Part shown: positions 6,558 through 24,046 of the stretch, in pieces | Layout of the letters: each line of letters begins with the position of its first letter | How positions within the stretch are numbered: the first letter of the stretch is position 1 | NCBI GenBank assembly: GCA_017857705.1 | Contig: JAFMCP010000007.1 | Coordinates: 1 to 44,915, forward strand | DNA from: Candidatus Nanopelagicales bacterium | GTDB lineage: Bacteria > Actinomycetota > Actinomycetes > S36-B12 | Direction of reading: 5' to 3' | Length of the DNA stretch: 44,915 bases | Position numbers and translations under genes: made by a program | Notes under the pieces: model-generated | What the model was told of the DNA's origin: nothing | The model's database searches: none | Seen by the model: the letters and a program-made list of their open reading frames with translations, nothing else

Positions 6558-6565
6558 GCGGGTCC

Positions 6566-6585: not shown

Positions 6586-6625
6586 TGAGCCAGACCGAGC
6601 GCCTGACTTTCCCACCAATCCCTTC

Positions 6626-6643
6626 ACAAACTTTACAAACTTG
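6626..6643. repeat. Direct repeat in the potC / oxidase gap
   Basis: Two adjacent 9-mers, acaaacttt and acaaacttg (8 of 9 identical), in the 113-bp gap between potC and the downstream oxidase. They could be a tandem protein-binding site; no known motif is recognised. Confidence 0.35.
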
Positions 6644-6670
6644 GTTCGGTCCTGCAATTCGTATTCAAGA

Positions 6671-7513: not shown

Positions 7514-8403
7514 TAGACCAAATCCTCCGTTCCAGCTCGACGTATATATATGAACACCAACGACAAAATCGCCAGCATTAACACGAACGAAAGTGCGCTT
7601 GCAGTTGGGTAGTCTCGGAACTGAATGAAATTCGTTTGAATTACGTTACCTATCATGCGGTCTTGGGTGGAACCCAGTAACGCGGCATTGATGTAATCAC
7701 CCGTTGCAGGAATAAACGTCAACAGTGTTCCAGCAACCACTCCCGGCAGTGAGAGTGGCCATGTGATTCTGCGGAATGTTGTAAATGCGGATGCATAGAG
7801 GTCATTAGATGCTTCCATCAATCGCGGATCGATTCTTTCAAGGGCAGCATAGAGCGGTAAAATCATAAATGGAAGAAAGTTATACGTCAGCCCAGCAATG
7901 ACAGCTATTCCCGTGTTAAGAATTCGATCATCGGGTAATAAATGCAGGTAATTAAAAAATGATGTTATGAATCCTTCATCTGAGAGGATCGTTTTCCAGG
8001 CGTAGGTTCTCAACAAGAAAGACGCAAACGAAGGTGCGATAACGAGGACGAGCATTAGTGCCCGCCAACGACCGGCCTTAAATGCAATGAAATAGGCCAA
8101 TGGATAAGCAATAAGGAGTGCAAGGGCGGTGGCGATTCCTGCATAGACAAAAGAGCGAAGAAATTGTGGCCAATATTCGGTCAACGCATCAGAGTAATTG
8201 CTAATTTGAAATGCAGGAACATACTGCCCTGATTGCCCCTCGACGGGAGCTTGCAAGCTGGTCAGAAACAAAGTTACAAACGGTATAGCGAAGAAGATAG
8301 CTAGCCAGGTCATACCTGGAATTAATAGAAAATACCCTGTACGCGACTTTCTCTGAGCAACAACACCACTAGTGGTACCCGTCGAAGGGAGGACCGCAAC
8401 CAC
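7513..8403 (-). CDS. potB: Spermidine/putrescine ABC transporter permease PotB
   Basis: Second permease of the polyamine importer, 296 residues from the chosen start. It has about six membrane segments and the EAA loop MEASNDLYASAFTTFRRITWPLSLPGVVAGTLLTFIPATGDY; the PATGDYINAALLG stretch is a PotB hallmark. I chose the GTG at 8403, not the longer open frame starting at 8490, because AAGGAG lies seven bases upstream inside the potA tail and the longer version would overlap potA by 85 bp with a low-complexity N-terminus. It begins three bases after the potA stop codon and overlaps potC by one base. Confidence 0.92.
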   Translation of the reverse strand: MVAVLPSTGTTSGVVAQRKSRTGYFLLIPGMTWLAIFFAIPFVTLFLTSLQAPVEGQSGQYVPAFQISNYSDALTEYWPQFLRSFVYAGIATALALLIAYPLAYFIAFKAGRWRALMLVLVIAPSFASFLLRTYAWKTILSDEGFITSFFNYLHLLPDDRILNTGIAVIAGLTYNFLPFMILPLYAALERIDPRLMEASNDLYASAFTTFRRITWPLSLPGVVAGTLLTFIPATGDYINAALLGSTQDRMIGNVIQTNFIQFRDYPTASALSFVLMLAILSLVFIYIRRAGTEDLV

Positions 8404-8405
8404 GT

Positions 8406-9557
8406 TCAGGCTCCTTTTGCCATCGCCTGCGCCGTCGTCGCCAGAAGCGTTTCGCCACCGGCAAGCCCGAAAGTGTGCTCTGGTGCCCAATGCACCAGGA
8501 CTCTGTCACCAACACTGGATCGATCTCCAACAATCACATTTTGCTCGAATACCGTAATGTCTTGGCCCCAGGGCAAGGTGATCAAATATTGAGTTGAGAC
8601 TCCTGCGTACGAGACGTCGACGACTGTTCCCTCCAAGGTGTTGTTGCCAATGGGAATTTTTTCGCGGTCGGGAAGATCAAGCACTGTCACCTTTTCTGGG
8701 CGAATGCCAACAATTATTTCGTCACTGGGTGCAGAGTTGCGTTCCACGGGAACTAGAAATTTAATTCCATTCGCCATGACCTCAATCATGTTTGAATCAC
8801 TGGCAACGCGTGTGCCAGCGAATAGATTGGACTGGCCTAAGAAATTCGCGACGAAAACAGTCTTTGGTAATTCATAAATCGAGGCCGGGTCACCCAATTG
8901 CTCGATACGACCAGCGTTCATGACAGCGATCGTGTCAGCCATTGTCATGGCTTCTTCCTGGTCATGGGTTACGTGAACAAAAGTCGTGCCAACTTCGGTT
9001 TGGATCCGCTTAAGTTCTATCTGCATCTGACGACGCAATTTGAGATCAAGGGCTCCCAAAGGTTCATCTAACAACAAAACATCGGGTTCATTAATTAACG
9101 CTCGCGCAACGGCCACGCGCTGTTGTTGTCCGCCAGAGAGTTGATTGGGTTTTCGCCGCGCCATGGGCGCTAATTCGACGAGTTCCAACATCGCATTTAC
9201 TGCGGGCTCAACGTCTTTGACACCTCTGCGACGTAGTCCAAATGCAACATTTTCGAAGATATCCAAGTGTGGGAACAGCGCATATGACTGGAAAACCGTA
9301 TTGACCGGTCGTTGAAAAGCTCGGAGTGAAGTTATGTCATTGTCACCGATGGAAATACGACCCGATGTCGGATCATCCAACCCGGCGACCATGCGCAGAG
9401 TGGTAGTTTTCCCACACCCAGATGCGCCCAGAAGCGCGAAGAATGAACCTGCCGGAATGGTCAATGTGAGGTTGTCCACAGCAGCAACGTCACCGAACAT
9501 CTTGGTCAGATTTTCTAGGTGCAGATCCTCCACATTGCGGTCTCGATCATGAGCCAC
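8406..9557 (-). CDS. potA: Spermidine/putrescine ABC transporter ATP-binding protein PotA
   Basis: Energises polyamine import. Seen in order: Walker A GASGCGKTT, Q-loop FQSYALFPHL, signature LSGGQQQR, Walker B VLLLDEPLGALD, H-loop HVTHDQEEA, then a C-terminal TOBE-like regulatory domain (FLGQSNLF ... GIRPEKV). About 383 residues. A TTG at 9563 is possible, but GTG at 9557 sits six bases after AAGGGG and is the better start. It follows potD across a 75-bp gap that holds a strong stem-loop, so potD may be made in excess over the membrane parts. Confidence 0.93.
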   Translation of the reverse strand: MAHDRDRNVEDLHLENLTKMFGDVAAVDNLTLTIPAGSFFALLGASGCGKTTTLRMVAGLDDPTSGRISIGDNDITSLRAFQRPVNTVFQSYALFPHLDIFENVAFGLRRRGVKDVEPAVNAMLELVELAPMARRKPNQLSGGQQQRVAVARALINEPDVLLLDEPLGALDLKLRRQMQIELKRIQTEVGTTFVHVTHDQEEAMTMADTIAVMNAGRIEQLGDPASIYELPKTVFVANFLGQSNLFAGTRVASDSNMIEVMANGIKFLVPVERNSAPSDEIIVGIRPEKVTVLDLPDREKIPIGNNTLEGTVVDVSYAGVSTQYLITLPWGQDITVFEQNVIVGDRSSVGDRVLVHWAPEHTFGLAGGETLLATTAQAMAKGA

Positions 9558-9592
9558 TCGCAACCCCTTTTTATGTTAAATATTCGCCAAAA

Positions 9593-9627
9593 TGTGGAGG
9601 GTTCACAAACCGTGTGAACCCTCCACA
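9593..9627 (-). terminator. Intercistronic stem-loop between potD and potA
   Basis: Perfect 14-bp inverted repeat, TGTGGAGGGTTCAC and GTGAACCCTCCACA, with a 7-nt loop. Read on the minus strand it is followed by ATTTT, as in a leaky intrinsic terminator. Placed directly after potD, it probably terminates part of the transcripts or protects the potD mRNA 3' end, giving more binding protein than permease and ATPase. Confidence 0.75.
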
Positions 9628-9632
9628 AAACA

Positions 9633-10847
9633 CTAGTTTCCAGTTGCCCTTTGGAATAGTCGTTCATAAGCTTCATTTTGCTCAGACGTCAGTTCCATGA
9701 AGACATATGCCGAATCGAGCACCGCTGCTGAGGGGAAAATCCATTCACTTGTGGCCAGTGCCGGGTCAATTTTTTCCATCACAGCCTGGGCACCCTCTAC
9801 AGGGCAGAGATAATTGACCCAAGCGGCAACCTCCGCAGCCACTTCAGGGTCATAGTAATAATTCATTACTTTCTCGGCATTTTTCTTGTGCTGTGCCAGA
9901 GAAGGAATCAACATGTTGTCAGTCCACAACGTGCCTCCACTTTCTGGCAGGCTGAAGCCGAAATCTTCACCGAGGGCAATGACATCTCCGGACCACCCGA
10001 TAACAGCAATGACATCGCCGCTATCCATGGCTGCGATGTAGTCATTTCCGGTAACTTGGCGAATCTGTCCATTGTCTACCTGCTTGGTTAGTGCCGAAAT
10101 CGCCTCTTCGAATTGGGTATCCGTGAACTCAGAAGGGTTGTATCCCAACCAAGCGAGAATGCAACCCATGGTGTCCCGCATTTCTGAAAGAACCGTGATT
10201 CGACCCTTCAGCGCAGGATCAAAAAGTTGATCCAGCGAGACTAGCGAGTCCTTACCCGTTGCTTCCCTTAAGGCGGGAACGTTGTACCCCAAGCCGGCAA
10301 AGCCGGACTGCCACGGCAAGGAGTAACTACGGTCAATGTCGAATTCAACCGCAGAAAGTCGAGGGATCAGGTTCACCGAATTGGGGATGTTCGCCTTGTC
10401 TAATTTCTGGGCAAATCCACTTTGAATCCATTGCGCCGCCATCCAGTCCGTGAGGACAACAATGTCTCGGCCAATATCTCGACCCTGTTCAAGTTGGGTG
10501 CGCACCTTGGCAAAAAACTCATTATTGTCATTAATATCTTCGGTGTAGGTGACATCGATTCCCGTTGAAGACTGGAATGCTTCCAGGGTCGGGTAGGTAC
10601 CTGCCTCTTCATCGGTATCGAGATAAGACGGCCAGTTCGACCAATTAACCAGCATCGCCGTGTCGGACATATCTTCGGCAGACGAGGCTTCCGTGGAACC
10701 GCCCGAACTCGTCCCGCAAGCAGTCGCGAGCATGGCCGCTCCACCAATACCTGCGGCCTGAAGCAGCCTGCGGCGTGACACTGAAGATCGCATGCCATGG
10801 GCCATCGCTGCAATTGCTTCTGGACGGTGTGAATTCTGTGAATTCAT
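9633..10847 (-). CDS. potD: Polyamine-binding lipoprotein PotD, Tat-exported
   Basis: Substrate-binding protein of the polyamine importer, 404 residues. The N-terminus carries a twin-arginine signal (SRRRLL, residues 24-29) and a lipobox LATAC (C44), so it should be folded before export and then lipid-anchored. The mature part has the PotD-like pattern NWSNWPSYLDTD, then FAKVRTQLEQGRDIGRDIVVLTDWM, and late motifs on SGDVIAVIGWSGD and LWTDNMLIPSLAQHKKNAEKVMNYYYDPE. Start ATG with AAAGGA upstream. It is the first gene of the potDABC / oxidase / agmatinase operon. The exact polyamine cannot be read from sequence. Confidence 0.92.
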   Translation of the reverse strand: MNSQNSHRPEAIAAMAHGMRSSVSRRRLLQAAGIGGAAMLATACGTSSGGSTEASSAEDMSDTAMLVNWSNWPSYLDTDEEAGTYPTLEAFQSSTGIDVTYTEDINDNNEFFAKVRTQLEQGRDIGRDIVVLTDWMAAQWIQSGFAQKLDKANIPNSVNLIPRLSAVEFDIDRSYSLPWQSGFAGLGYNVPALREATGKDSLVSLDQLFDPALKGRITVLSEMRDTMGCILAWLGYNPSEFTDTQFEEAISALTKQVDNGQIRQVTGNDYIAAMDSGDVIAVIGWSGDVIALGEDFGFSLPESGGTLWTDNMLIPSLAQHKKNAEKVMNYYYDPEVAAEVAAWVNYLCPVEGAQAVMEKIDPALATSEWIFPSAAVLDSAYVFMELTSEQNEAYERLFQRATGN

Positions 10848-10881
10848 TGAATTTCCTTTCGAGCGCTCATGTTAACTTTCC

Positions 10882-10919
10882 ATTTATGCATTGCCATTTT
10901 ATTTATGCACTGCCATTTG
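10882..10919. repeat. Tandem 19-bp repeat upstream of potD
   Basis: Two adjacent copies of atttatgcaNtgccattt differing at one internal base and at the final base. They begin about 35 bp upstream of the potD start. The 19-bp period is near two helical turns, so both copies would face the same side of the DNA. On the minus strand each copy contains TGCATAAAT, which also resembles a -10 box. Confidence 0.6.
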
Positions 10920-11146
10920 TGACCTGCCGTTTTCAATTCCATCACTGCTTTTTAAATTTCGCCAAGAACTCTTGCATCATGCTATTGCATTGGAAGCCAA
11001 TATCGGGGCTTAAACGCTATCCAAATTCAACTAGGTCGCACCTCACCTGCGCTCCCTTGCTGTCAACATTAGCGATCAATATGAATGAGCAACAAATTGT
11101 TGTATCAGGAAAAGGACAGATCACATTTATGTAACAAGGTGAAAAT

Positions 11147-11164
11147 AATATGTGTGCGCATATT
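11147..11164. promoter_or_regulatory. Inverted repeat upstream of the pyrimidine operon
   Basis: AATATG, 6-nt spacer, CATATT: perfect 6-bp arms, about 77 bp upstream of the first gene of the operon at 11241. Candidate operator or activator site; the binding protein is unknown. Confidence 0.35.
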
Positions 11165-11240
11165 TTAGTCCGTAAACTGTTGGTTATATAGATTCTCGCT
11201 AGGTCCAACATGCTGTAATTCACTGGAGATGGAGTATTAA

Positions 11241-12077
11241 ATGAGTGTTGTTCGCGCTGCGGTAGTTCAAACTGATTGGACCGGCGACAAAGAGTCCATG
11301 ATTGTCAAGCACGAACAATATGCACGAGAGGCTGCTGCGGCCGGAGTTAAAGTCATTTGTTTCCAGGAGCTCTTTTATGGACCGTACTTCTGCCAGGTTC
11401 AAGATGCCGAATTCTACGCTTACGCTGAAGCCATTCCTGGCCCGATCACTGAGCGCTTTCAAGCGTTGGCTCGCGAACTCGAGATGGTCATGGTTTTGCC
11501 CATGTACGAAGATGCAGGTCCAGGTTTCCTTTACAACACGGCGGCTGTAATTGATGCAGACGGCAGCTACCTTGGGAAATACCGCAAACAGCACATTCCG
11601 CACGTAAAGGGCTTCTGGGAGAAGTTTTACTTCCGCCCAGGAAATGGTGGTTACCCCGTTTTTGATACAGCTGTAGGAAAAATTGGGGTTTATATTTGCT
11701 ATGACCGGCATTTCCCAGAGGGTTGGAGGGCTCTTGGTCTTAATGGTGCCCAAATTGTTTTCAACCCTTCAGCCACATCTCGTGGGTTATCCGAGTATCT
11801 ATGGAGCATCGAACAACCAGCCGCGGCTGTTGCCAACGAATATTATGTTGGGGCAATTAACCGAGTGGGTATTGAGGATCTGGGCGACGATGACTTCTAT
11901 GGTCAGTCGTACTTCGTGGATCCAGAAGGCAGTTACGTAGGAGAAAAAGGTGATCCCCACAAGTCGGAGCTCGTGATACGAGACCTTGATCTAGAGCTGA
12001 TTACCACGGTGCGAACCCGTTGGCAGTTTTACCGTGACCGTCGCCCCGATGCCTATCAAGATTTAACCCGGCCCTAA
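11241..12077 (+). CDS. Beta-ureidopropionase (carbon-nitrogen hydrolase)
   Basis: Nitrilase-superfamily amidohydrolase, 278 residues. The catalytic triad is visible: E43 (CFQELFYGPYF), K116 (YRKQHIPH) and C153 (YICYDRHFPE). The segment FNPSATSRGLSEYLW ... AINRVG matches the animal beta-ureidopropionase pattern closely. The enzyme hydrolyses N-carbamoyl-beta-alanine to beta-alanine, CO2 and ammonia. It is the first gene of the operon and lies 41 bp before dihydropyrimidinase, its pathway partner. N-carbamoylputrescine amidase has the same fold and would suit the nearby polyamine genes, but no agmatine deiminase is present and the dihydropyrimidinase next door decides for the pyrimidine role. 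ATG with a GGAG site. Confidence 0.85.
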   Translation: MSVVRAAVVQTDWTGDKESMIVKHEQYAREAAAAGVKVICFQELFYGPYFCQVQDAEFYAYAEAIPGPITERFQALARELEMVMVLPMYEDAGPGFLYNTAAVIDADGSYLGKYRKQHIPHVKGFWEKFYFRPGNGGYPVFDTAVGKIGVYICYDRHFPEGWRALGLNGAQIVFNPSATSRGLSEYLWSIEQPAAAVANEYYVGAINRVGIEDLGDDDFYGQSYFVDPEGSYVGEKGDPHKSELVIRDLDLELITTVRTRWQFYRDRRPDAYQDLTRP

Positions 12078-12118
12078 AACGCTAATCAGAAAGTCCCCGC
12101 CAAGTCTGAAGGATTGCC

Positions 12119-13537
12119 ATGACGATATTAATCAAGAACGGCCAAGTTGTTTCCCCGCAGGGCGCCATTGCGGCAGATGTTTTGGTTGATGGCGAAAAAA
12201 TCGTGGCTGTTTTCGCGCCCGGTGACACGTCTTTAGGAGGCGGATTAGCTTCGAACGCCGACACGGTAATCGATGCCGCTGGAAAATACGTGATTCCCGG
12301 TGGCGTTGACGCACACACCCATATGGAATTGCCCTTTGGCGGAACTTACGCCTCTGACACCTTTGACACGGGGACACTTGCAGCTGCATGGGGTGGTACT
12401 ACCACCATCATCGATTTCGCCGTTCAAAAAACTGGCGAAAGGGTGCAGGACTGTCTTGCTGCTTGGCATGAAAAAGCCAGCGGAAACACCCACATTGATT
12501 ACGCATTTCACCAGATCCTTGGCGGCGTAGATGACGAATCGCTCAAGGCCATGGACGAACTCGTTAATGAAGGTATAACCAGTTTTAAATTATTTATGGC
12601 CTATCCGGGTGTCTATTACAGTGATGACGGCCAGATATTGCGGGCGATGCAAGCCGCCTCCAATAACGGCAGCATGATCATGATGCATGCGGAGAACGGA
12701 ATAGCGATTGATGTATTAGTGGCCCAAGCCCTAGCTGAAGGCAAGACCGATCCCAAGTACCACTCCCTCACGCGGCCATGGGAAACAGAGGCCGAAGCAA
12801 CAAATCGGGCGATCATGCTCTCCCGGATCACGGGGGCGCCTCTTTACATCGTTCACATGTCAGCAAAACAGGCCGTACAAGTTTTGCAGTCAGCCAAAAA
12901 TGAAGGTTTGAATGTCTTCGGTGAAACGTGTCCACAATATCTTTACCTCTCACTCGAGGAACAACTTTCACAGCCTGGATTCGAGGGCGCCAAATGGGTA
13001 TGTTCCACTCCCCTTCGTTCAAAGGCTGAAGGTCACCAAGAAGAACTGTGGAAATACCTTCGAACGAATGACCTATCCATCGTCAGCACTGACCATTGCC
13101 CGTTTTGCTTTAAAGAGCAAAAGGAATTGGGTCTGGGGAACTTCTCTGCAATCCCCAACGGCATTGGCTCAGTTGAGCATCGCCTTGACCTTCTCTACCA
13201 GGGTGTTGTTAACGGCCACATTTCCCTTGCCCGGTGGGTGGAAATCTGTTCCACAACTCCAGCCCGCATGTTTGGCCTTTACCCACAAAAGGGCGTCATC
13301 GCCCCCGGATCGGACGCCGACATTGTCATATACGACCCAGCAGGCCGGACTGAGATTGGTTTTCACAAGACGCACCACATGAACATGGATCACTCAGCGT
13401 GGGAAGGGTTCAATATCGACGGACATGTTGACACTGTCATTTCACGAGGCAAAGTCGTTGTTGACAACAACACTTACCTTGGCCAAAAGGGGCACGGTAA
13501 GTTTCTCAAGCGGGGACTCAGCCAATACTTGATTTAG
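12119..13537 (+). CDS. hydA: Dihydropyrimidinase / D-hydantoinase
   Basis: Metal-dependent cyclic amidohydrolase, 472 residues. It opens 5,6-dihydrouracil or dihydrothymine to the N-carbamoyl amino acid and often hydrolyses hydantoins. Seen: HTH metal motif (H66, H68 in GGVDAHTHMELP), the lysine that becomes carboxylated (K157 in TSFKLFMAYPG), H190 in MMHAENG, the IVHMSAKQA strand, and the late aspartate in STDHCPF. These are all ligands of the binuclear zinc site. It sits between the ureidopropionase and the semialdehyde dehydrogenase in one operon. Start ATG with AAGGA. Substrate range (dihydropyrimidine versus hydantoin) cannot be set by sequence; the downstream gene order favours dihydropyrimidine. 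Confidence 0.92.
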   Translation: MTILIKNGQVVSPQGAIAADVLVDGEKIVAVFAPGDTSLGGGLASNADTVIDAAGKYVIPGGVDAHTHMELPFGGTYASDTFDTGTLAAAWGGTTTIIDFAVQKTGERVQDCLAAWHEKASGNTHIDYAFHQILGGVDDESLKAMDELVNEGITSFKLFMAYPGVYYSDDGQILRAMQAASNNGSMIMMHAENGIAIDVLVAQALAEGKTDPKYHSLTRPWETEAEATNRAIMLSRITGAPLYIVHMSAKQAVQVLQSAKNEGLNVFGETCPQYLYLSLEEQLSQPGFEGAKWVCSTPLRSKAEGHQEELWKYLRTNDLSIVSTDHCPFCFKEQKELGLGNFSAIPNGIGSVEHRLDLLYQGVVNGHISLARWVEICSTTPARMFGLYPQKGVIAPGSDADIVIYDPAGRTEIGFHKTHHMNMDHSAWEGFNIDGHVDTVISRGKVVVDNNTYLGQKGHGKFLKRGLSQYLI

Positions 13538-13586
13538 TCCCCTCAGGTAGTCCAACACATGCCACATGAGAATCAAGGAGATGCAC

Positions 13587-15074
13587 ATGCGCACCATTCC
13601 CCATTGGATTAACGGCCAAGAAGTTGTCCCGGCCTCAGGAAATTTCGGACCAGTATTCGATCCTTCAACAGGGGAACAGCAAGCGCAGGTATGTCTTGCC
13701 AGCACTGCTGAAATGGACTCAGCAATAGCCACAGCAAAAGCAGCCTTTCCTGCGTGGCGCTTGACCTCACTCTCTCGCAAGTCGGAAATTCTGTTTCGTT
13801 TTCGTGAGTTGGTTGTTGCCAATCGGGATGAAATTGCCCGACTCGTTTCTATCGAACATGGCAAGGTCCCCAGCGATGCAGCCGGTGAATTAGCTCGCGG
13901 AATTGAAAACATTGAGTTTTCCTGCGGCATCCCTACTCACATGAAGGGTGGGTTCAGCGAGCAAGTTTCCGGCGGTATTGATGTTTACTCAATCAAGCAA
14001 CCCCTCGGCGTTGTTGCTGGGATCACCCCTTTCAACTTTCCAGCGATGGTTCCACTCTGGATGTTCACCAATGCGATTGCCACCGGAAACACTTTCATTC
14101 TCAAGCCCAGTGAAAAAGATCCGTCTGTCACGGTATTTATGGCCAAATTACTTAAGGAAGCAGGCCTACCTGATGGCGTATTCAATATCGTTCACGGAGA
14201 CAAGGTCGCAGTAGATGCAATTCTGAATCATCCAGATATCGCTGCCGTGAGCTTCGTTGGCTCAACCCCAATTGCCAAATATATTTATTCAACCGGAACA
14301 GCGAATGGAAAGCGTGTTCAAGCACTGGGTGGGGCCAAGAACCACATGGTTGTCCTGCCAGATGCAGATATAAATATGGCAGCCGATGCCTCTGTTAGTG
14401 CCGGATTCGGCTCCGCTGGCGAACGGTGCATGGCAATCTCCGTGGTTGTTGCCGTCGGCGACATTGCCGATCCCCTGATTGACGCGATTTCTACGCGCAT
14501 TCCCGCCTTGAAGGTGGGGCCGGGTACTGACCCTGTGAACGAGATGGGTCCATTGATCACTGGAGAACACCGCGACAAGGTTGCCTCTTACATCGCCGGT
14601 GCAGCTGCAGAGGGTGCAACAGTCGTAATTGATGGTCGCGAAGGAGCACTCCCAGAAAAGGGCTACTTCCTTAACCCATCACTCATTGATCATGTTCGAC
14701 CCGGAATGAAAGTTTACGATGAAGAGATCTTCGGCCCTGTCCTCTCAGTTATTCGCGTTGATACATACGAGGAAGCCGTCACGCTGATCAACGACCATCA
14801 ATATGGAAACGGCACGGCAATCTTCACCCGCGATGGTGGAGCCGCCCGCCAGTTCCAGTTTGATATTCAGGTGGGAATGGTTGGCATAAACGTACCCATC
14901 CCAGTACCAGTGGGCTACTACAGCTTTGGAGGCTGGAAGTCTTCGATTTTCGGTGACGCCAACATGTATGGACCTGCCGGTATTGAGTTTTACACCCATA
15001 CCAAGACAGTCACTTCGCGGTGGCCTGATCCTTCAACAAGTTCTGTCGACCTGGGATTCCCTCAGACTCGTTAA
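13587..15074 (+). CDS. mmsA: CoA-acylating (methyl)malonate-semialdehyde dehydrogenase
   Basis: Aldehyde dehydrogenase superfamily, 495 residues from the chosen start. It oxidises malonate semialdehyde to acetyl-CoA and methylmalonate semialdehyde to propionyl-CoA with NAD and CoA, losing CO2. Catalytic cysteine is C281 in GSAGERCMA. The usual general-base region reads ALGGAKNHM in place of E-LGGK, the hallmark of the CoA-dependent family. The ATG at 13587 is preceded by AAGGAG with a 6-base spacer, so I prefer it over the in-frame ATG at 13566. In this operon it would dispose of malonate semialdehyde made from beta-alanine, completing uracil carbon breakdown to acetyl-CoA. Confidence 0.9.
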   Translation: MRTIPHWINGQEVVPASGNFGPVFDPSTGEQQAQVCLASTAEMDSAIATAKAAFPAWRLTSLSRKSEILFRFRELVVANRDEIARLVSIEHGKVPSDAAGELARGIENIEFSCGIPTHMKGGFSEQVSGGIDVYSIKQPLGVVAGITPFNFPAMVPLWMFTNAIATGNTFILKPSEKDPSVTVFMAKLLKEAGLPDGVFNIVHGDKVAVDAILNHPDIAAVSFVGSTPIAKYIYSTGTANGKRVQALGGAKNHMVVLPDADINMAADASVSAGFGSAGERCMAISVVVAVGDIADPLIDAISTRIPALKVGPGTDPVNEMGPLITGEHRDKVASYIAGAAAEGATVVIDGREGALPEKGYFLNPSLIDHVRPGMKVYDEEIFGPVLSVIRVDTYEEAVTLINDHQYGNGTAIFTRDGGAARQFQFDIQVGMVGINVPIPVPVGYYSFGGWKSSIFGDANMYGPAGIEFYTHTKTVTSRWPDPSTSSVDLGFPQTR

Positions 15075-15112
15075 ACATTTCGAAAACTATTCACTCACGA
15101 AAGGTTGAAGTC

Positions 15113-16132
15113 ATGGATTTTGGTGTGGTTATGCAATGCACTCCCCCTGCTGCACGGGTCGTTGATCTTGCACGTAAGGCGGAAACATATGGTTTCAAAT
15201 ACGTCTGGACCTTCGACTCACATATTTTGTGGGAAGAGCCTTACGTCATCTATAGCAAGATTCTCAACGAAACACGCAACATAACTATCGGACCAATGGT
15301 GACGAACCCGGCTACTCGGGACATCACTGTCACAGCATCAGTATTTGCGACATTGAACGAGATGTATGGCAATCGAACGGTGATCGGAATTGGCCGAGGT
15401 GACTCCGCCGTTCGGGTAACCAACGGCAAGCCAGTAACCGTTGCAGAGCTTCGCGAAGCTGTTGTTAATCTCAAGGGTTTAGTCAATGGCGAGTCCGTTG
15501 ATTACAACGGCAATGACATCCGTCTCCCCTGGGCAGCTGAAAGCCGCACTCCCGTATGGGTGGCTGCCTACGGTCCAAAAGTACTTGCGTTAACGGGTGA
15601 AGTAGGCGACGGGTTCATTCTTCAACTTGCCGACCCTTCCATCGCTGAATGGACCATCAAGGCAGTAAAAGATGCAGCCAAGGCTGCTGGACGTGATCCA
15701 GACGCTGTGAAAATTTGTGTGGCTGCCCCTGCATACGTAACCGACGATGTGGCTCACGCCCGCGACCAGCTCCGCTGGTTCGGCGGAATGGTCGGTAATC
15801 ACGTGGCCGACATTGTCGATCGGTACGGAGAGGGCGGTGGGGCCGTGCCACAGGCCCTCACCGACTACATCAAGGGCAGAAAAGGTTACGACTACAACGA
15901 TCACGGTCAAGCCGGAAATACCCACACCGATTTTGTTCCCGACGAAATCATTGATCGTTTTTGCATCATAGGTCCGGTTGAAGAGCAGATTCGACGCCTT
16001 GAAGAACTCAAGTCACTTGGCGTTGACCAATTCGCCCTGTACCTCCAGCATGATGATAAAGATCACACGATGGCAGAGTATGGAGAAAAAGTCATTCCTG
16101 CTGTTTCAGAAAAGCGCAAAGCAAAAGAGTAA
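15113..16132 (+). CDS. Luciferase-like flavoprotein of uncharacterised function (LLM, CPS_4043-type)
   Basis: 339-residue TIM-barrel flavin-dependent oxidoreductase of the bacterial luciferase-like family. From memory it matches the group called TIGR03842 (F420-dependent oxidoreductase, CPS_4043 family): N-terminal MDFGVVMQ, WTFDSHILWEEPYVIYS, TIGPMVTNPATRD, IGIGRGDSAVRV, PVWVAAYGPKVL, DGFILQLAD, and a C-terminal LGVDQFALYLQHDD. The enzyme class uses FMN or F420, but the true cofactor and reaction here are not known. It lies 38 bp after mmsA and two bases before the permease gene. That position implies a step in use of the imported compound, possibly an oxidation or reduction before dihydropyrimidinase. 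It does not resemble RutA closely. Confidence 0.85.
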   Translation: MDFGVVMQCTPPAARVVDLARKAETYGFKYVWTFDSHILWEEPYVIYSKILNETRNITIGPMVTNPATRDITVTASVFATLNEMYGNRTVIGIGRGDSAVRVTNGKPVTVAELREAVVNLKGLVNGESVDYNGNDIRLPWAAESRTPVWVAAYGPKVLALTGEVGDGFILQLADPSIAEWTIKAVKDAAKAAGRDPDAVKICVAAPAYVTDDVAHARDQLRWFGGMVGNHVADIVDRYGEGGGAVPQALTDYIKGRKGYDYNDHGQAGNTHTDFVPDEIIDRFCIIGPVEEQIRRLEELKSLGVDQFALYLQHDDKDHTMAEYGEKVIPAVSEKRKAKE

Positions 16133-16134
16133 AG

Positions 16135-17004
16135 ATGGCTTCAACTCGTGGTCGCGTTTCCAAGGGATTTGTTTCATTTTTGTGGGCTCTCGCAGGCGTG
16201 CTTCTCATAGCAATAATGTGGGAACTCACAAAAATTTTGGGAACGCTAATCGATCTTCCCTTTAATACATCCGATCAGGCAATGCCACATATTTGGACCA
16301 TGTTTTCCGCTTTCACTATGCCTGAAGTGAGAGGTTCAGAAACAACAGTCTTTCAAGCAGTCCTATCCGCGGCAACCTACTCATTGATGTTGGCATTGGG
16401 TGGGTTTGTCATTGGTGTTTCTGTTGGGCTACTTCTCGCAATAATCATGCAGAGATTTTTGTTTTTTGAGCGCGGGCTGCTGCCATTCGTGATCGCCTCG
16501 CAAACAGTTCCTCTTATTGCCTTGGCACCACTGATTGTCGGAATTGGAAATCAAATTAGTTTTGGACCAATTCAGTGGTCAACCACTTATTCCGTGATGT
16601 TCATCGCGGCCTACTTGGCTTTCTTCCCGTTGTCTATTGGTGCACTTCGCGGTTTACAGGCACCCAGCGCAACATCGCTTGAACTAATGCGATCCTACGC
16701 TGCAACAAACAATAAGGTTTTGTGGAAATTACGCTTCCCAGCAAGTATTCCCTATCTTGTTCCTGCACTCAAGGTTTCAGCTGCGGCTGCTGTAGTCGGC
16801 ACTGTTGTTGCCGAAATCTCAACAGGTGTTCGAGGTGGGATCGGGCGACTAATGGTCGAATATGCCCGCGAGACGACTGCGCAGCCAGCAAAAGTCTATG
16901 TGGCAGTTTTCGGCGCCATCATGTTAGGGCTTGTCGTGACAGCCGCAATTACCGCAATTGATGTATTACTCACTCGGAATCTTCCTAAGAAAGGTCTGGC
17001 ATGA
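16135..17004 (+). CDS. ABC transporter permease, SsuC/TauC type (first of two)
   Basis: 289 residues, about six membrane segments. The EAA-type loop reads LELMRSYAATNNKVLWKLRFPASIPYLVPALKVSAAAAVVGTVVAE, as in nitrate/sulfonate/taurine-type importers. It starts two bases after the flavoprotein stop and overlaps the ATPase by 4 bp (ATGA). With the second permease at 17825 it should form a heterodimeric channel. Confidence 0.88.
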   Translation: MASTRGRVSKGFVSFLWALAGVLLIAIMWELTKILGTLIDLPFNTSDQAMPHIWTMFSAFTMPEVRGSETTVFQAVLSAATYSLMLALGGFVIGVSVGLLLAIIMQRFLFFERGLLPFVIASQTVPLIALAPLIVGIGNQISFGPIQWSTTYSVMFIAAYLAFFPLSIGALRGLQAPSATSLELMRSYAATNNKVLWKLRFPASIPYLVPALKVSAAAAVVGTVVAEISTGVRGGIGRLMVEYARETTAQPAKVYVAVFGAIMLGLVVTAAITAIDVLLTRNLPKKGLA

Positions 17005-17825
17005 CAACAACCCCTGACACAGGAAGTGCACTTGCTATTTCGCATGTTTCAAAGGTGTTCAACAAGGGCAATGAAAACGAAGTAATTGCACTCTCTGACG
17101 TAAACCTAGATGTTCACACGGGTGAATTTATTTCACTGATTGGACCCTCCGGGTGTGGGAAAAGCACGCTCCTTCGAGTCATTGGAGACCTCACCGGATT
17201 TGACTCCGGCAGTGTGCAAGTTTCAGGAAAATCCCCCGAAGATGCCCGCAAGGATCGTCTCTACGGAATTGCATTCCAGCAGGCTGCCCTCTTTGACTGG
17301 CGAACAGTCAGCAAAAACATTGAACTCCCCCTAGAGCTCGCCGGATGGGACAAGTCCAAGCGTGAAGCGAGGTCTGCTGAACTGCTCGATATGGTCCAGC
17401 TTTCTGAATTTGGCAATCACCGCCCCTGGGAACTTTCCGGAGGTATGCAACAACGTGTTGCAATCGCTCGATCACTCGCTGTCGACCCACCGCTGCTGCT
17501 CATGGATGAACCATTCGGTGCACTCGACGAAATGACCCGTGAACGTATGCAGAATGAGCTCCTGCGAATACGGCTCGATACGGGCAAAACAATTGTTTTT
17601 GTGACTCACTCCATCCCAGAAGCGGTCTACCTCTCTGATCGAGTGGTCGTGATGTCCCCTCGACCAGGTCGAATCACCGCGGAAATAAACGTTGATCTCG
17701 GGGAGCGGACAGAAACGACGCGGGAATCTGATCACTTCTTCCATTGCGTAACATCAGTCCGCGAAGCGCTTCGCCTGCACGACACGTCACGAACATCCGC
17801 TTCTTCATTCCGGGGTGAAGTCTGA
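17001..17825 (+). CDS. ABC transporter ATP-binding protein, SsuB/TauB type
   Basis: 274 residues. Walker A GPSGCGKST (48-56), Q-loop FQQAALFDW, signature LSGGMQQR, Walker B LLLMDEPFGALDE, switch histidine VTHSIPEA, then the VVMSPRPGRI stretch characteristic of the nitrate/sulfonate/taurine group. It overlaps both flanking permease genes, so all three are translationally coupled. It powers the importer whose binding protein is at 18634. Confidence 0.92.
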   Translation: MTTTPDTGSALAISHVSKVFNKGNENEVIALSDVNLDVHTGEFISLIGPSGCGKSTLLRVIGDLTGFDSGSVQVSGKSPEDARKDRLYGIAFQQAALFDWRTVSKNIELPLELAGWDKSKREARSAELLDMVQLSEFGNHRPWELSGGMQQRVAIARSLAVDPPLLLMDEPFGALDEMTRERMQNELLRIRLDTGKTIVFVTHSIPEAVYLSDRVVVMSPRPGRITAEINVDLGERTETTRESDHFFHCVTSVREALRLHDTSRTSASSFRGEV

Positions 17826-18598
17826 TGAATTCGAAACTGAATTATCTGTGGCCTCCGATACTAGTTGCGGCACTATTTCTCGGAGCCTGGCAACTCCTCG
17901 TTGTCATTCAAGACCTTAAGCCTTTCCTTCTTCCCGCTCCAAGTTTGATCGCCTCCGAATTCTCCAATGGTGCAGCGCTAATGTGGGGTGCAGCTTTTTA
18001 CACCGGCACAACCGCCTTCTTAGGACTGTTATTTGGAACACTTGCCGGGCTTTTTATGGCTCTGCTTGCGCAGAGGTTTGTCACTGTCGACAAAATAGTG
18101 ACACCACTCGCCGCCGGGTTGGCAACGGTACCGATCATCGCCTTAACTCCAATCTTGAACAACATGTTCAACATCACCAGTCGCACCCCGCGGGTGCTCG
18201 TCACCGCGATCATTGTTTTGTTTCCCATTTTCGTCAACGTGATGCGTGGCCTCATTCAAGTAAATCCAGTTCAACTTGAACTAATGCGGTCATTAAACGC
18301 GGCTCCGCGAACCACACTTCGAATCCTTCGAATTCCAAACGCCATTCCGTTCTTCTTCACTGGCCTCAAAATTGCGGCGCCATTGGCCGTTATCGCTGCA
18401 TTAGTGGCCGAGTATTTCGGAGGCCCCCAGGAGGGACTTGGTAGTCGAATAGCTAGCGCCGCCGCAAACACGGCCTACGGTCGTGCTTGGGCGTATGTCC
18501 TAGCGGCAATTATCACCGGTCTAATTTTTTACCTAGCCATCATTGCTATAGAGCGCCTCGTAACGCCTCGCAGTTCACAACTACATGCCAAATCTTAA
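17825..18598 (+). CDS. ABC transporter permease, SsuC/TauC type (second of two)
   Basis: 257 residues, about six membrane segments, EAA-type loop LELMRSLNAAPRTTLRILRIPNAIPFFFTGLKIAAPLAVIAALVAEYFGG. It begins within the ATPase stop (TGATG). It is clearly different from the permease at 16135, whereas many relatives work as homodimers of one permease. Two permeases with an NMT1 binding protein recall transporters for pyrimidine-like or vitamin precursors. Confidence 0.88.
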   Translation: MNSKLNYLWPPILVAALFLGAWQLLVVIQDLKPFLLPAPSLIASEFSNGAALMWGAAFYTGTTAFLGLLFGTLAGLFMALLAQRFVTVDKIVTPLAAGLATVPIIALTPILNNMFNITSRTPRVLVTAIIVLFPIFVNVMRGLIQVNPVQLELMRSLNAAPRTTLRILRIPNAIPFFFTGLKIAAPLAVIAALVAEYFGGPQEGLGSRIASAAANTAYGRAWAYVLAAIITGLIFYLAIIAIERLVTPRSSQLHAKS

Positions 18599-18633
18599 AT
18601 GACACACCGGTAAATCAAAAAAAGGGAGAAATA

Positions 18634-19824
18634 ATGAATAGAGGAAAAAGTTGGATTCGCGTCGCAGCTGTAGCTGCTTCGGGTCTTCTGTTTCTCACTG
18701 CGTGTAGCAGTGACGACGAAACAACAAGTGAAACAACAGATGCAGCAACCACAGAAGAGGCCGCCACCGAGGAGGCCTCTACAGAGTGCACAGAACTTAC
18801 TCCTGTTTCGCTTCAACTTCAGTGGTTCGTTCAGGCTCAGTTCGGTGGCTACTATGCCGCCAAGGACTTGGGCTTCTATGAAGAGCAGTGCCTTGATGTA
18901 ACCATTCTTGAGGGCGGCGTTGACATCGTTCCCCAGACTGTCCTCGCTCAGGGTGGCGCAGACTTCGCCATTTCATGGGTCCCCAAAGCTCTAGCTTCAC
19001 GCGAGCAAGGCGCAGGAATTGTTGACGTAGCTCAGGTTTACCGCACATCCGGAACACTCCAAGTTTCATGGGCGGATTCCAACATCACCACAGCAGCAGA
19101 CCTTGCAGGTAAGAAGGTTGGCAACTGGGGATTTGGAAACGAATATGAACTGTTTGCAGGCATGACAAAGGCCGGTCTTGATCCAGCCAATGACGTTGAA
19201 TTGGTGCAACAGCAATTCGACATGCAAGCACTTCTCAATCGTGAGATTGACGCAGCTCAGGCCATGACCTACAACGAATACGCACAGGTTTTGGAGTCAG
19301 TTAATCCTGATACCGGCGAGTTGTACCAGCCTGGCGACTTCAATGTGATCAACTGGAATGACGAAGGCACCGCGATGTACCAGGATGCAATCTGGGCATC
19401 AGAAGAGCGCCTCGCAGATGCCGCGTACCAAGACACCACGCAGCGTTTCGTTACTGCATCACTCAAGGGCTGGATCCACTGCCGCGATAACGCACAAGAG
19501 TGTGCTGACATCATCACGGCAAACGGTTCCAAACTTGGCGCAAGCCACCAACTCTGGATGATGAACGAGGTCAACAAGTTGATCTGGCCATCACCCATGG
19601 GTATCGGAGTCATCGAGGATGAACTGTGGGCACAGACGGTCAGTGTTTCCCTGAACACAAAGAACCTCGAAGGGGCAACAATTATCACCGCCGAGCCACC
19701 AGCTGAGGCATACACGAACCAATACGCGGAAGCTGCAAATGCAGCGCTCACCGCTGAAGGTTTCAATACCACCGGAGATGCATATGCTCCGATCGAAGTA
19801 ACCCTCAATGAGGGTGGCAACTAA
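18634..19824 (+). CDS. NMT1/THI5-like substrate-binding lipoprotein
   Basis: 396 residues from the ATG at 18634, which follows AAAGGGAG; an in-frame extension to 18487 lies inside the previous gene and is rejected. Lipoprotein signal with lipobox FLTAC (C24), then a Thr/Glu-rich linker and the NMT1 fold: SLQLQWFVQAQFGGYYAAKD, the GGVDIVPQTVLAQGGADFAISW pocket region, and KKVGNWGFGNEYE. Relatives bind hydroxymethylpyrimidine, riboflavin and other ring compounds. With dihydropyrimidinase in the same operon the likely ligand is a pyrimidine, dihydropyrimidine or hydantoin. It is the last gene of the operon, ahead of a strong hairpin. Confidence 0.87.
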   Translation: MNRGKSWIRVAAVAASGLLFLTACSSDDETTSETTDAATTEEAATEEASTECTELTPVSLQLQWFVQAQFGGYYAAKDLGFYEEQCLDVTILEGGVDIVPQTVLAQGGADFAISWVPKALASREQGAGIVDVAQVYRTSGTLQVSWADSNITTAADLAGKKVGNWGFGNEYELFAGMTKAGLDPANDVELVQQQFDMQALLNREIDAAQAMTYNEYAQVLESVNPDTGELYQPGDFNVINWNDEGTAMYQDAIWASEERLADAAYQDTTQRFVTASLKGWIHCRDNAQECADIITANGSKLGASHQLWMMNEVNKLIWPSPMGIGVIEDELWAQTVSVSLNTKNLEGATIITAEPPAEAYTNQYAEAANAALTAEGFNTTGDAYAPIEVTLNEGGN

Positions 19825-19920: not shown

Positions 19921-21363
19921 TTAACTTTCCAAATTAGCCATAACATGCTTGATGCGGGTGTAATCCTCGAATCCATACATTGACAAATCTTTGCCGTACC
20001 CTGAATGCTTGAAACCGCCGTGAGGCATTTCGGCAACAAGTGGGATGTGGGTATTAATCCACACGCAACCAAAATCGAGTCCCTTGGCCATGCGCATTGC
20101 TCGACCAAAGTCTTTTGTCCAAACAGATGATGCAAGACCGTAACTCACGCCATTTGCAAATGCCAGCGCCTGAGCTTCATCGGTAAATTTCTGGATAGTG
20201 ACTACCGGACCGAAAATCTCATTTTGAATCATCTCGTCGTCTTGTTGAAATCCTTCGATCACTGTCGGCGGAATAAAGAAACCACGATTTCCCTGTCGAG
20301 AACCACCTGCTACAACTTTGGTGTGCCTGGGAGCACGCTCAATGAAGCCGAGTATCCGATCCATGTGACCAGCATTATTTACCGGCGGAATGAGGCCCTC
20401 ACCCGTGGGACCGTCCTCAAATGTTGTTGATAGCGCCGCTGCCTGCTCAGCCATGGCTGCTACGAAATCGTCGTAAATCCGTGGGGCTACCAGCATTCGA
20501 GTTGCTGCCGTGCAGTCCTGGCCCGCGTTGAAGAAACCTGCAACAGCTAACCACTCCGCAGCAGCGTCAATATCCGCGTCATCAAAAACTACAACGGGCG
20601 CTTTGCCCCCAAGTTCTAGGTGGACTCGTTTGACGTCCATTGCCGCCGAAGCCGCCACCTGTATTCCTGCCCGAACCGACCCTGTGATGGAAACCATTTG
20701 AGGAGTTTTGTGCTCGACCAGTTCCTTTCCGGTATTGCGGTCACCACACACCACATTGAACACACCATCTGGGAGAGCCCCCGACTGAGAGATAAGCTCC
20801 GCCATTTTCAATGTTGAGGCTGGCGTGGTGTCACTGGGCTTTAAAACTACTGTATTTCCCGCAGCGATCGCAGGAAAAAATTTCCAAGCAGCCATCATCA
20901 TGGGGTAATTCCAAGGTGTCACTTGACCAATAACGCCAATGGGTTCGCGACGAACCATCGAGGTATAACCTGCCATGTATTCACCAGCGGACTTGCCCTC
21001 AAGTATGCGGGCCGCGCCTGCAAAGAATCTGATTTGGTCAATCATGGGTGGGATTTCTTCGGTCATGGTGACCGGAACCGGTTTCCCCGTATTTTCACTC
21101 TCAATCGCCACTAGTTCATCAGCATGTGCCTCGAAGGTATCTGCAATTGTTAACAGAGCCTGTTGGCGTTCAGACGGAGTAGAGTTCTTCCACGATTCGA
21201 ACGCAGTGGCAGCGACCGTGAACGCCTGATCGATGTCTGCGGGATCGGATATTGGAGCTGTAGCAAAAATCTCACCCGTCGAAGGGTTAATCAGTTCGCT
21301 GACTGCACCTTTTTGAGTGTCAACAAACTGTCCACCCACGAAGTTTCTTAGTACCTGTGTCAT
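19921..21363 (-). CDS. Gamma-aminobutyraldehyde dehydrogenase (PatD-like)
   Basis: NAD(P)-dependent aldehyde dehydrogenase, 480 residues, by eye closest to 4-aminobutyraldehyde dehydrogenases. Catalytic residues: N152 (TPWNYP), E250 (HLELGGK) and C284 (FFNAGQDCTAATR); the aromatic, Gln-containing run around the cysteine is typical of aminoaldehyde enzymes. It turns 4-aminobutyraldehyde (pyrroline) into GABA and may take 5-aminopentanal from cadaverine. A GGGAGGA ribosome site precedes the ATG. It is divergent from the Lrp regulator and the putrescine-type aminotransferase that would supply its substrate, so it is probably controlled by that regulator. Betaine-aldehyde dehydrogenase is the main alternative. 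Confidence 0.85.
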   Translation of the reverse strand: MTQVLRNFVGGQFVDTQKGAVSELINPSTGEIFATAPISDPADIDQAFTVAATAFESWKNSTPSERQQALLTIADTFEAHADELVAIESENTGKPVPVTMTEEIPPMIDQIRFFAGAARILEGKSAGEYMAGYTSMVRREPIGVIGQVTPWNYPMMMAAWKFFPAIAAGNTVVLKPSDTTPASTLKMAELISQSGALPDGVFNVVCGDRNTGKELVEHKTPQMVSITGSVRAGIQVAASAAMDVKRVHLELGGKAPVVVFDDADIDAAAEWLAVAGFFNAGQDCTAATRMLVAPRIYDDFVAAMAEQAAALSTTFEDGPTGEGLIPPVNNAGHMDRILGFIERAPRHTKVVAGGSRQGNRGFFIPPTVIEGFQQDDEMIQNEIFGPVVTIQKFTDEAQALAFANGVSYGLASSVWTKDFGRAMRMAKGLDFGCVWINTHIPLVAEMPHGGFKHSGYGKDLSMYGFEDYTRIKHVMANLES

Positions 21364-21514
21364 GTTTTCCTCCCACTAGAGATGTGCAACACGGTACCCT
21401 AAAATAATTGATTTCACTCGATTCTTGGATATAAATGTACGGTTTTAGTTGTATAACCGGTCAATTAACGCGGAAAGACTTGATTTTTTGTGAAAATAGG
21501 ACCAAAGTAAGTGC
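21364..21514. promoter_or_regulatory. Divergent control region, aldehyde dehydrogenase / Lrp
   Basis: 151-bp AT-rich divergent region. It contains an inverted repeat CGGTT-N10-AACCG (21440-21459), a candidate autoregulatory Lrp/AsnC site, and TTGGATATA (21425-21433), which matches 8 of 9 bases of the repeats in front of the acyl-CoA dehydrogenase at 26399. Promoters are not certain. Confidence 0.45.
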
Positions 21515-21976
21515 ATGGTCCGTAAATCTGCACCACTTGATGACGCATCTCGCGCGATCATTGAGCAACTTCAACAGGATGGCCGCCGACCGTATGCCAC
21601 GATTGGTAAGGCTGTCGGTTTATCCGAGGCCGCGGTCCGACAGCGGGTCCAAAAATTACATGACCAAGGTGTCATGCAAATTGTGGCAATTACAGACCCT
21701 GCCCAAGTTGGTTATCTTCGTACGGCAATGATCGCAATCAAAGTTCATGGTGATGTGGAGGCGGTATCCAAGCAAATCGAGCAACTACCCGAGATTTCAT
21801 ATCTAGTGCTAGTAACCGGAAAGTATGACCTTTTGGCTGAGTGCGTTGCAGAGGACGATGACCACCTCCTGCGAGTCACAAATTCGCAAATCAGAAACAT
21901 CTCGGGCGTTGTTTCAACAGAAACTTTCGTTTATCTCGGCCTTCGCAAACAAACCTACAGTTGGGGAACCAAATGA
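21515..21976 (+). CDS. Lrp/AsnC-family transcriptional regulator
   Basis: 153 residues. N-terminal winged helix-turn-helix (LDDASRAIIEQLQQDGRRPYATIGKAVGLSEAAVRQRVQKLHDQGVM) and C-terminal RAM ligand-binding domain (AMIAIKVHG ... YLVLVTGKYDLLAECVAED). Such proteins form octamers or similar and sense amino acids or amines. It overlaps the aminotransferase start by 4 bp (ATGA) and is divergent from the aldehyde dehydrogenase, so control of putrescine/GABA breakdown is the natural inference. The ribosome site is weak (AGGA about 13 bases upstream). Confidence 0.9.
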   Translation: MVRKSAPLDDASRAIIEQLQQDGRRPYATIGKAVGLSEAAVRQRVQKLHDQGVMQIVAITDPAQVGYLRTAMIAIKVHGDVEAVSKQIEQLPEISYLVLVTGKYDLLAECVAEDDDHLLRVTNSQIRNISGVVSTETFVYLGLRKQTYSWGTK

Positions 21977-23373
21977 CAACCACGCCGCAATACGTTACCG
22001 AATCAGGATCAGATCGACTCGCGGACAAAGCCCGCGAACACCTTTGGATGCACTTCACCCGTCACTCGACGTATTACGAAGGTGGCCATGTTCCTGTGAT
22101 TACCAAAGGTCAAGGTGCATATATTTGGGATGATCAAGGAAATAAATATTTTGATGGACTGTCAGGACTATTCGTCGTTCAAGCTGGTCACGGACGAAGG
22201 GAACTTGCCCAAGCAGCCGCAAAGCAGGCTGAGGAGCTAGCCTTTTTTCCTATTTGGTCCTACGCACACCCAAATGCCATTTTGCTTGCCGAGAGACTGG
22301 CTCACTTGGCACCGGGAGATCTGAATCGAGTGTTTTTCACCTCGGGCGGAGGCGAAGCAGTAGAAAGCGCTTGGAAACTGGCCAAACAATACTTCAAATT
22401 AACCGGGAAACCCACAAAAACGAAAGTGATTAGTCGCGCAGTTGCCTATCACGGAACTCCCCAAGGGGCCCTTAGCATTACGGGTATTCCCGATGCGAAA
22501 ATCCCTTTCGAGCCGCTAGTTCCCGGTGGAGTGAAAGTTCCGAATACAAACTTTTACCGCGCACCCGAGGAATACCGTGGAGATGAAAAAGCATTTGGTC
22601 TTTGGGCAGCCAATCGTATTGCCGAGGCTATTGAGTTTGAAGGTGCGGATAGCGTCGCCGCAGTATTTGTAGAGCCTGTTCAAAACTCCGGTGGGTGTTT
22701 CCCCCCTCCGCCCGGATACCTGGAGCGTGTGCGCGAGATCTGCGATGAATACGACGTACTCATGGTCGCCGATGAAACCATTACTGCCTTCGGTCGCATC
22801 GGTGACTACTTTGCAATGAACCGATTTGGTGTTACTCCCGACATCATTACCTGTGCGAAGGGAATGACTTCTGGTTACTCCCCGCTGGGTGCAATGATCG
22901 CCAGCGATCGACTCTTTGAGCCGTTCAAGAACGGAACAACTTCATTCCTGCACGGATACACTTGGGGCGGTCATCCTGTTTCTGCGGCTGTTGCTATGGA
23001 AAACCTTGACATTTTCGAGCGAGAAGGTCTCAACCAGAATGTTCTTGAGAACGAAGGGAACTTTCGCCGCACTCTCGAAAAATTGAGCGATATTCCTATC
23101 GTCGGTGATGTTCGAGGTGCTGGTTACTTCTACGGAATTGAATTGGTCAAAGACAAAAATACCCGAGAAACATTTAATGACGCTGAGTGTGAGCGGCTCT
23201 TACGGGGGTTCCTGTCCAAGGCCCTCTTTGACAATGGCTTGTACTGTCGGGCTGATGACCGCGGTGACCCCGTCATCCAGCTTGCACCCCCACTTACGAT
23301 CGGTCAGAAAGAATTCGATGAAATTGAGGGCATCCTGAGAAATGTGTTGACCCAGGCACTCGAAGTTTTGTAG
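21973..23373 (+). CDS. spuC: Class III aminotransferase, putrescine/beta-alanine-pyruvate type (SpuC-like)
   Basis: 466 residues from the ATG at 21973, which overlaps the Lrp stop and has GGGGA seven bases upstream; the TTG at 21961 is less likely. PLP lysine K296 (TCAKGMTSGYSPLGAM), cofactor aspartate D267 (MVADETITAFGR), and the SGLFVVQAGHGRRELAQAAA region typical of putrescine/omega-amino-acid:pyruvate transaminases. Probable role: putrescine (and perhaps cadaverine) to the aminoaldehyde with pyruvate as acceptor. Beta-alanine:pyruvate transamination is the main alternative and would serve the pyrimidine operon. Followed at 9 bp by the PPOX-fold gene. Confidence 0.87.
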   Translation: MTTTPQYVTESGSDRLADKAREHLWMHFTRHSTYYEGGHVPVITKGQGAYIWDDQGNKYFDGLSGLFVVQAGHGRRELAQAAAKQAEELAFFPIWSYAHPNAILLAERLAHLAPGDLNRVFFTSGGGEAVESAWKLAKQYFKLTGKPTKTKVISRAVAYHGTPQGALSITGIPDAKIPFEPLVPGGVKVPNTNFYRAPEEYRGDEKAFGLWAANRIAEAIEFEGADSVAAVFVEPVQNSGGCFPPPPGYLERVREICDEYDVLMVADETITAFGRIGDYFAMNRFGVTPDIITCAKGMTSGYSPLGAMIASDRLFEPFKNGTTSFLHGYTWGGHPVSAAVAMENLDIFEREGLNQNVLENEGNFRRTLEKLSDIPIVGDVRGAGYFYGIELVKDKNTRETFNDAECERLLRGFLSKALFDNGLYCRADDRGDPVIQLAPPLTIGQKEFDEIEGILRNVLTQALEVL

Positions 23374-23382
23374 GGATTTCAC

Positions 23383-24042: not shown

Positions 24043-24046
24043 GTCA

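Follow-up and report, generated by a model that had tools for sequence, protein, structure and literature searches.

The reductive route of uracil and thymine catabolism begins with reduction of the ring; dihydropyrimidinase then opens the reduced ring, ureidopropionase hydrolyzes the product, and a transamination yields (methyl)malonate semialdehyde, which is oxidized in the last step. In the Rut pathway, the product of RutA is already ring-opened. RutA is an FMN monooxygenase, and the protein family that we describe here (TIGR03842) has its superfamily, fold, and association with pyrimidine catabolism in common with it. Dihydropyrimidine dehydrogenase (PydA or PreA-PreT; the gene names of the reductive pathway follow PMC7332683) resembles TIGR03842 in the reaction that we propose and in the kind of gene cluster in which it occurs, but belongs to an unrelated fold family and works with FMN, FAD, and Fe-S and with NAD(P)H or ferredoxin (PMC7332683). 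The closest solved fold is that of Mer, the F420-dependent methylene-tetrahydromethanopterin reductase. In the enzyme of Methanocaldococcus jannaschii, an iminium forms when Glu6 protonates the substrate, the pyrimidine ring of the pterin is in contact with Asp96, a carboxamide at site 178 contacts both F420 and the pterin, and the Val62 peptide forms a cis backstop behind F420 (PMC11094777). TIGR03842 has the backstop Val and the pyrimidine-contact Asp in common with Mer, whereas it scores under both Mer cut-offs, has Glu6 replaced, and lies in a pyrimidine-breakdown gene context. Antibiotic biosynthesis offers known F420H2-dependent luciferase-like reductases of C=N and C=C bonds (Apd6; PMC8498797). 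A putative yanthine reductase of Chloroflexota is likewise a luciferase-family F420 enzyme that would stand in for a PydA-type reductase next to a dihydropyrimidinase-like enzyme (PMC12507026), but its substrate is purine-derived and it is accompanied by SsnA and xanthine dehydrogenase-like genes; we compared this system by its description only.

The locus studied here lies in a window of 44,915 nucleotides (the whole stretch of DNA that was analyzed) from a Candidatus Nanopelagicales bacterium (Actinomycetota; contig JAFMCP010000007.1). We consider it probable that its luciferase-like protein, and with it the TIGR03842 family, is an F420H2-dependent reductase of uracil, and probably of thymine, that replaces dihydropyrimidine dehydrogenase (PydA, PreA-PreT). 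This reading draws on family membership, the operon, conservation of the module, the absence of the known first enzymes, the F420 genes, the fold, and the replacement of a catalytic residue; from these we infer the cofactor in use, the direction, the exact substrate, the proton donor, and the import specificity. The genes are as follows.

11241..12077, + strand: carbon-nitrogen hydrolase, beta-ureidopropionase-like (third step); PF00795, 226 bits
12119..13537, + strand: dihydropyrimidinase/hydantoinase (second step); TIGR02033, 548.9 bits, cut-off 393.25
13566..15074, + strand: MmsA, CoA-acylating (methyl)malonate-semialdehyde dehydrogenase (last step); TIGR01722, 705.8 bits, cut-off 448.5
15113..16132, + strand: luciferase-like protein, here proposed to reduce uracil/thymine with F420H2 (first step); TIGR03842, PF00296, predicted structure nearest Mer
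16135..17004, + strand: ABC importer permease; PF00528
17001..17825, + strand: ABC importer ATPase; best matches to the SaoA and TauB families, under their cut-offs
17825..18598, + strand: ABC importer permease; weak matches to the SsuC, SaoP, and NtrB permease families, under their cut-offs
18634..19824, + strand: NMT1/THI5-type substrate-binding lipoprotein; PF09084, 122.7 bits; lipoprotein-like start MNRGKSWIRVAAVAASGLLFLTACSS

The block 11241-19824 reads as an operon because all its genes lie on one strand. The start codon of the luciferase-like gene follows the end of mmsA (15074) after 38 bases, two bases (16133-16134) separate the gene from the permease start at 16135, and within the importer the first permease and the ATPase overlap by four bases and the ATPase and the second permease by one. 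The position between mmsA and the importer, with a two-base gap to the permease, had already been noted in a preliminary description made from the sequence, and the coordinates agree with it. A dihydropyrimidinase and a ureidopropionase-like hydrolase thus stand in one cluster, as in the reductive pathway; the hydrolase also reaches 246 bits against the N-carbamoylputrescine amidase family (TIGR03381), under its cut-off of 410. Next to the luciferase-like gene, the window encodes the pathway's second, third, and final steps, and for the first-step reductase we found no known enzyme in the operon, the luciferase-like protein being the only candidate. A class III aminotransferase (PRK06541) is encoded at 21961-23373; we do not claim it for the pyrimidine pathway because it is sited among polyamine-type genes about 2 kb beyond the importer. 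The stretches that flank the operon (7513-10847 and 19921-25411) carry spermidine/putrescine-type importer genes, an aminobutyraldehyde dehydrogenase, an Lrp-type regulator, this aminotransferase, and an FAD oxidoreductase, and look as if they served polyamine breakdown.

The luciferase-like gene is a complete reading frame with an ATG start that encodes 339 amino acids, and the strand opposite it is interrupted by stop codons. Among NCBIfam profiles the protein matches TIGR03842 (F420_CPS_4043) over the full length of the profile (1-329 of 329) at 579.5 bits (E = 1.7e-174; cut-off 295.45), which bears out the CPS_4043-type assignment of the preliminary description; NCBIfam lists this family as a ‘hypothetical equivalog’ whose reaction is unassigned. 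Its sole Pfam match is PF00296 (Bac_luciferase, 214.8 bits), and the FMN and ferredoxin domains of the PreA type are absent, which sets it outside PydA/PreA. The second-best families are both Mer models, whose cut-offs the protein misses (TIGR03555, 137.4 bits versus 348.7; NF002619, 150.1 versus 276), and the score against FGD (TIGR03554) is 54.8 bits versus a cut-off of 420. RutA (TIGR03612, cut-off 498.3) is absent from the 25 best NCBIfam matches, in line with the clear sequence difference from RutA claimed earlier, and a RutA search of the source genome gave no match at E = 1e-60. The presence of this 339-residue protein in a pyrimidine-catabolism context is confirmed as real and beyond chance.

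We compared the neighborhoods of TIGR03842 genes at 120 loci, namely 40 from sampled Actinomycetota genomes and the best 80 named loci of a genome collection, some genomes possibly being common to both sets. The best 80 are all close (at least 65% identity), and distant members came from separate searches; the broad sampling covers one phylum, Actinomycetota, and the proteobacterial loci are all on plasmids, with chromosomes (including that of Colwellia, the family namesake) outside the survey. With the window proteins as queries, we repeatedly found hydA, the ureidase, mmsA, and the importer near the TIGR03842 gene. The preliminary description had named neighbors unrelated to dihydropyrimidinase as evidence that would count against a place in ring catabolism; the neighbors proved overwhelmingly to include it, at 105 of the 120 loci (80 of the 120 being the best listed, and the counts ignoring shared descent). 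A ureidase accompanies TIGR03842 at 106 loci (89 carbon-nitrogen hydrolases and 17 M20 enzymes), both enzymes occur together at 100, and the nine loci with neither lie mostly on short contigs. The M20 hydrolase beside many TIGR03842 genes scores over the cut-off of TIGR01879, and MmsA is found at 51 of the best 80 named loci. Where a hydA match was scored (106 loci), hydA shares the strand of TIGR03842 in 103 cases and lies no more than 5 kb away in 101. PreA and PreT were each found at none of the 120 loci.

Some loci depart from this arrangement. In genome G218 (near 5491-6476), the match to TIGR03842 is split between two reading frames (profile positions 1-66 and 64-329), which we take as a probable frameshift or sequencing error. 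A plasmid of Caballeronia sp. SBC2 (10001-13991) carries a C-terminal TIGR03842 fragment followed by a Zn-dependent hydrolase, alanine dehydrogenase, and a piece of transhydrogenase, apparently a decaying module. In genome G084, which is without TIGR03842, a different Mer-like luciferase-family protein (187 bits, under the Mer cut-off) adjoins a dihydropyrimidinase-type gene (8099-11601).

Across 296 sampled Actinomycetota genomes, 61 carry TIGR03842 over cut-off, and hydA over cut-off is present in 57 of these 61 carriers versus 28 of the 235 others (Fisher p~1e-34, ignoring shared ancestry). The first-step enzymes searched for were PreA, PreT, and RutA, with the barbiturate and URC routes outside the search. 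Neither PreA nor RutA was found over cut-off in any of the 61 carriers; PreA (NF006183) exceeds its cut-off in only 2 of the 296 genomes, neither of which has TIGR03842. One genome without TIGR03842, G204, has the order PreT-PreA-M20 hydrolase-hydA, and its M20 hydrolase has 52-59% identity to the M20 enzymes that accompany TIGR03842 where the gene order is hydA-aminotransferase-M20-luciferase-like gene. Judged by its gene content, this operon is a direct case of one reductase exchanged for the other. G204 is also the exception among the 28 sampled genomes that have hydA without TIGR03842; the other 27 are without PreA over cut-off as well, and therefore other first steps or other substrates exist.

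The preliminary description had called for a check of F420 synthesis genes, and the source genome encodes FbiC, FbiA (next to a CofE-like gene), and NpdG, the last over its cut-off, on separate contigs; of its four luciferase-like proteins, none reaches the RutA cut-off. CofH is over cut-off in 49 of the 61 TIGR03842 carriers. Nine of the other 12 have FbiA over cut-off (G253, G218, G291, G186, G175, G294, G220, G211, and G143), with G291, G143, and G211 also giving an FbiC match in a protein search, and the remaining three (G246, G117, and G264), in which both CofH and FbiA are under cut-off, are assemblies in 190-370 contigs. In the nearly complete G253 and G218, neither a family nor a protein search found an FO synthase, a pattern that FO uptake would explain; in these two genomes, which belong to one genus, a distance of about 10-13 kb separates FbiA from the operon with TIGR03842.

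We regard alphaproteobacterial plasmid operons as the strongest evidence on the cofactor. Plasmids of Paracoccus alcaliphilus and Leisingera caerulea carry the series cofG-cofH-cofD-cofC-cofE-npdG-TIGR03842 (cofD being labeled 2-phospho-L-lactate transferase in Paracoccus), in which the genes before TIGR03842 make up what by annotation is a complete set for F420 synthesis and reduction. In L. caerulea, pntAB-aminotransferase-M20 hydrolase-hydA runs divergently from this operon, with an NCS1 nucleobase symporter after hydA; in P. alcaliphilus an ABC importer follows TIGR03842, and no hydA was found within 10 kb of it. The operon linkage, the F420 genes of the source genome, and the fold ranking described below point indirectly to F420 as the cofactor that TIGR03842 proteins would bind, and reduction seems the natural direction because, as read from the gene content, transhydrogenase and NpdG would supply NADPH and F420H2. 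On plasmid 3 of Variovorax sp. PBL-E5 (5414-15973), a TIGR03842-like protein under cut-off (202.7 of 295 bits) is accompanied by a carbon-nitrogen hydrolase, npdG, RidA, and cofG-H-D-C-E, with a divergent allantoinase/dihydropyrimidinase-like amidohydrolase, perhaps a second self-contained F420 module for another heterocycle.

An AlphaFold model of the 339-residue protein, built from 25 sequences, has a mean pLDDT of 84.3 and a pTM of 0.87, with lower confidence at residues 31-40 and roughly 221-270. In comparisons with Foldseek and VIA-align, Mer ranked first (Z 34-35.5, rmsd 2.7-3.0 over 313-320 residues, 25-28% identity), followed by Adf, FGD2, and FGD (Z ~28-31) and then by FMN enzymes, with RutA at ~24. 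This ranking of cofactor classes is compatible with F420, while a shared fold by itself shows no function. When 42 TIGR03842 proteins are aligned with Mer, the backstop site of Val62 is Val in all 42 (a statement on residue identity alone, not on the cis state), the equivalent of Asp96 is kept in 41, and site 178, which is Gln178 in the text of PMC11094777 and Asn in the structure chain, is Gln in all 42. The catalytic Glu6 is replaced by Val, Thr, or Cys in all 42, which separates the family from Mer, and its loss would suit a free pyrimidine as substrate, for which no iminium has to be formed.

The proposed sequence of events is the following. The ABC importer would bring the substrate into the cell, and NpdG (Fno) would use NADPH to reduce F420 to F420H2. 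The bound pyrimidine would then accept a hydride from C5 of F420H2 at its electron-poor C5=C6 bond and take up a proton, yielding 5,6-dihydrouracil (or dihydrothymine). Dihydropyrimidinase would open the dihydro ring, and the hydrolase would free beta-alanine (or beta-aminoisobutyrate) with release of ammonia and CO2, after which a transaminase would give (methyl)malonate semialdehyde and MmsA would convert it to acetyl-CoA (or propionyl-CoA). The preliminary description had given no preference among flavin- or F420-dependent oxidation, reduction, and ring attack; the genome context, the fold ranking, and the motif now favor F420H2 and reduction over the other options, and for riboflavin pieces, which it had listed among possible substrates, we found no support.

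A different substrate for the same kind of enzyme is unlikely but deserves weight: TIGR03842 might use F420H2 to reduce another N-heterocycle (hydantoin-like, an imidazolone, or purine-derived such as yanthine), with the amidohydrolase acting as a hydantoinase. TIGR02033 spans hydantoinases and dihydropyrimidinases, so that the family match does not fix the substrate ring, and the TIGR03842-like protein of Variovorax, under cut-off, belongs to a different F420 module. Leisingera carries an NCS1 symporter, and the NCS1 family also includes hydantoin carriers. A luciferase-family F420 enzyme has moreover been proposed as yanthine reductase in uric acid clusters of Chloroflexota (PMC12507026). 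However, in the window operon we recognized neither a xanthine dehydrogenase-like nor an SsnA-like gene, and MmsA, which handles the end products of thymine and uracil, is present both there and at the 51 named loci counted above. The ureidase class varies between carbon-nitrogen and M20 enzymes while hydA and TIGR03842 stay constant, and the G204 operon couples the same hydrolases with PreA-PreT, all of which argues against this reading.

Two other readings change the chemistry. That the enzyme is a dehydrogenase, oxidizing a pathway intermediate or a sugar phosphate with F420 and so providing F420H2 for other enzymes, is very improbable: the related luciferase-like FGD and Adf are dehydrogenases (PMC6279831) and NpdG is missing from the window operon, but NpdG directly adjoins TIGR03842 in both alphaproteobacterial operons, where it would already make F420H2 from NADPH. 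Mer, nearest by sequence and fold, falls in the reductase clade (PMC6279831), the FGD score lies far below its cut-off, and with an oxidation here the pathway would have no enzyme at its entry. We give still less credence to a RutA-like FMN monooxygenase that uses oxygen to open the uracil ring, and consider this ring attack the least likely chemistry. Superfamily, fold (Z ~24), and pyrimidine context are shared with RutA, yet RutA is outside the 25 best families, every F420 enzyme outranks the FMN enzymes in the fold comparison, the linkage is to F420 synthesis genes, and a dihydropyrimidinase would be left without substrate after RutA.

Our literature search, for which most subscription papers were beyond reach, found no publication on TIGR03842 or on an F420 uracil reductase, which agrees with the earlier statement that the reaction of the CPS_4043 group is unassigned. 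The yanthine reductase proposal (PMC12507026) is the same swap for a purine and limits the novelty of ours; for pyrimidines we found no report of such a swap in the literature searched. It seems to us an even question whether TIGR03842 is a new type of uracil reductase, running on F420 and not on flavin and Fe-S supplied by NAD(P)H or ferredoxin, and whether the complete F420 pathway of Rhodobacterales plasmids is an accessory of this one reaction, so that pyrimidine breakdown is the purpose of F420 there.

If the F420H2-dependent uracil reductase that we propose is correct, a reaction would be assigned to the CPS_4043 family, and reductive pyrimidine entry without dihydropyrimidine dehydrogenase would be explained in many actinobacteria, including small-genome aquatic ones. 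According to a study of Mycobacterium smegmatis, the genes of its reductive uracil pathway have not all been identified (PMC4617892), so that the first step in actinobacteria may still lack an assigned enzyme. In Alphaproteobacteria, a 2021 review called the role of F420 minor or niche-specific and experimentally unexplored, and stated that the F420 producers of this class encode Fgd (PMC8498797); some of these ‘Fgd’ proteins could be TIGR03842. Our proposal would thus also give F420 a role in Alphaproteobacteria.
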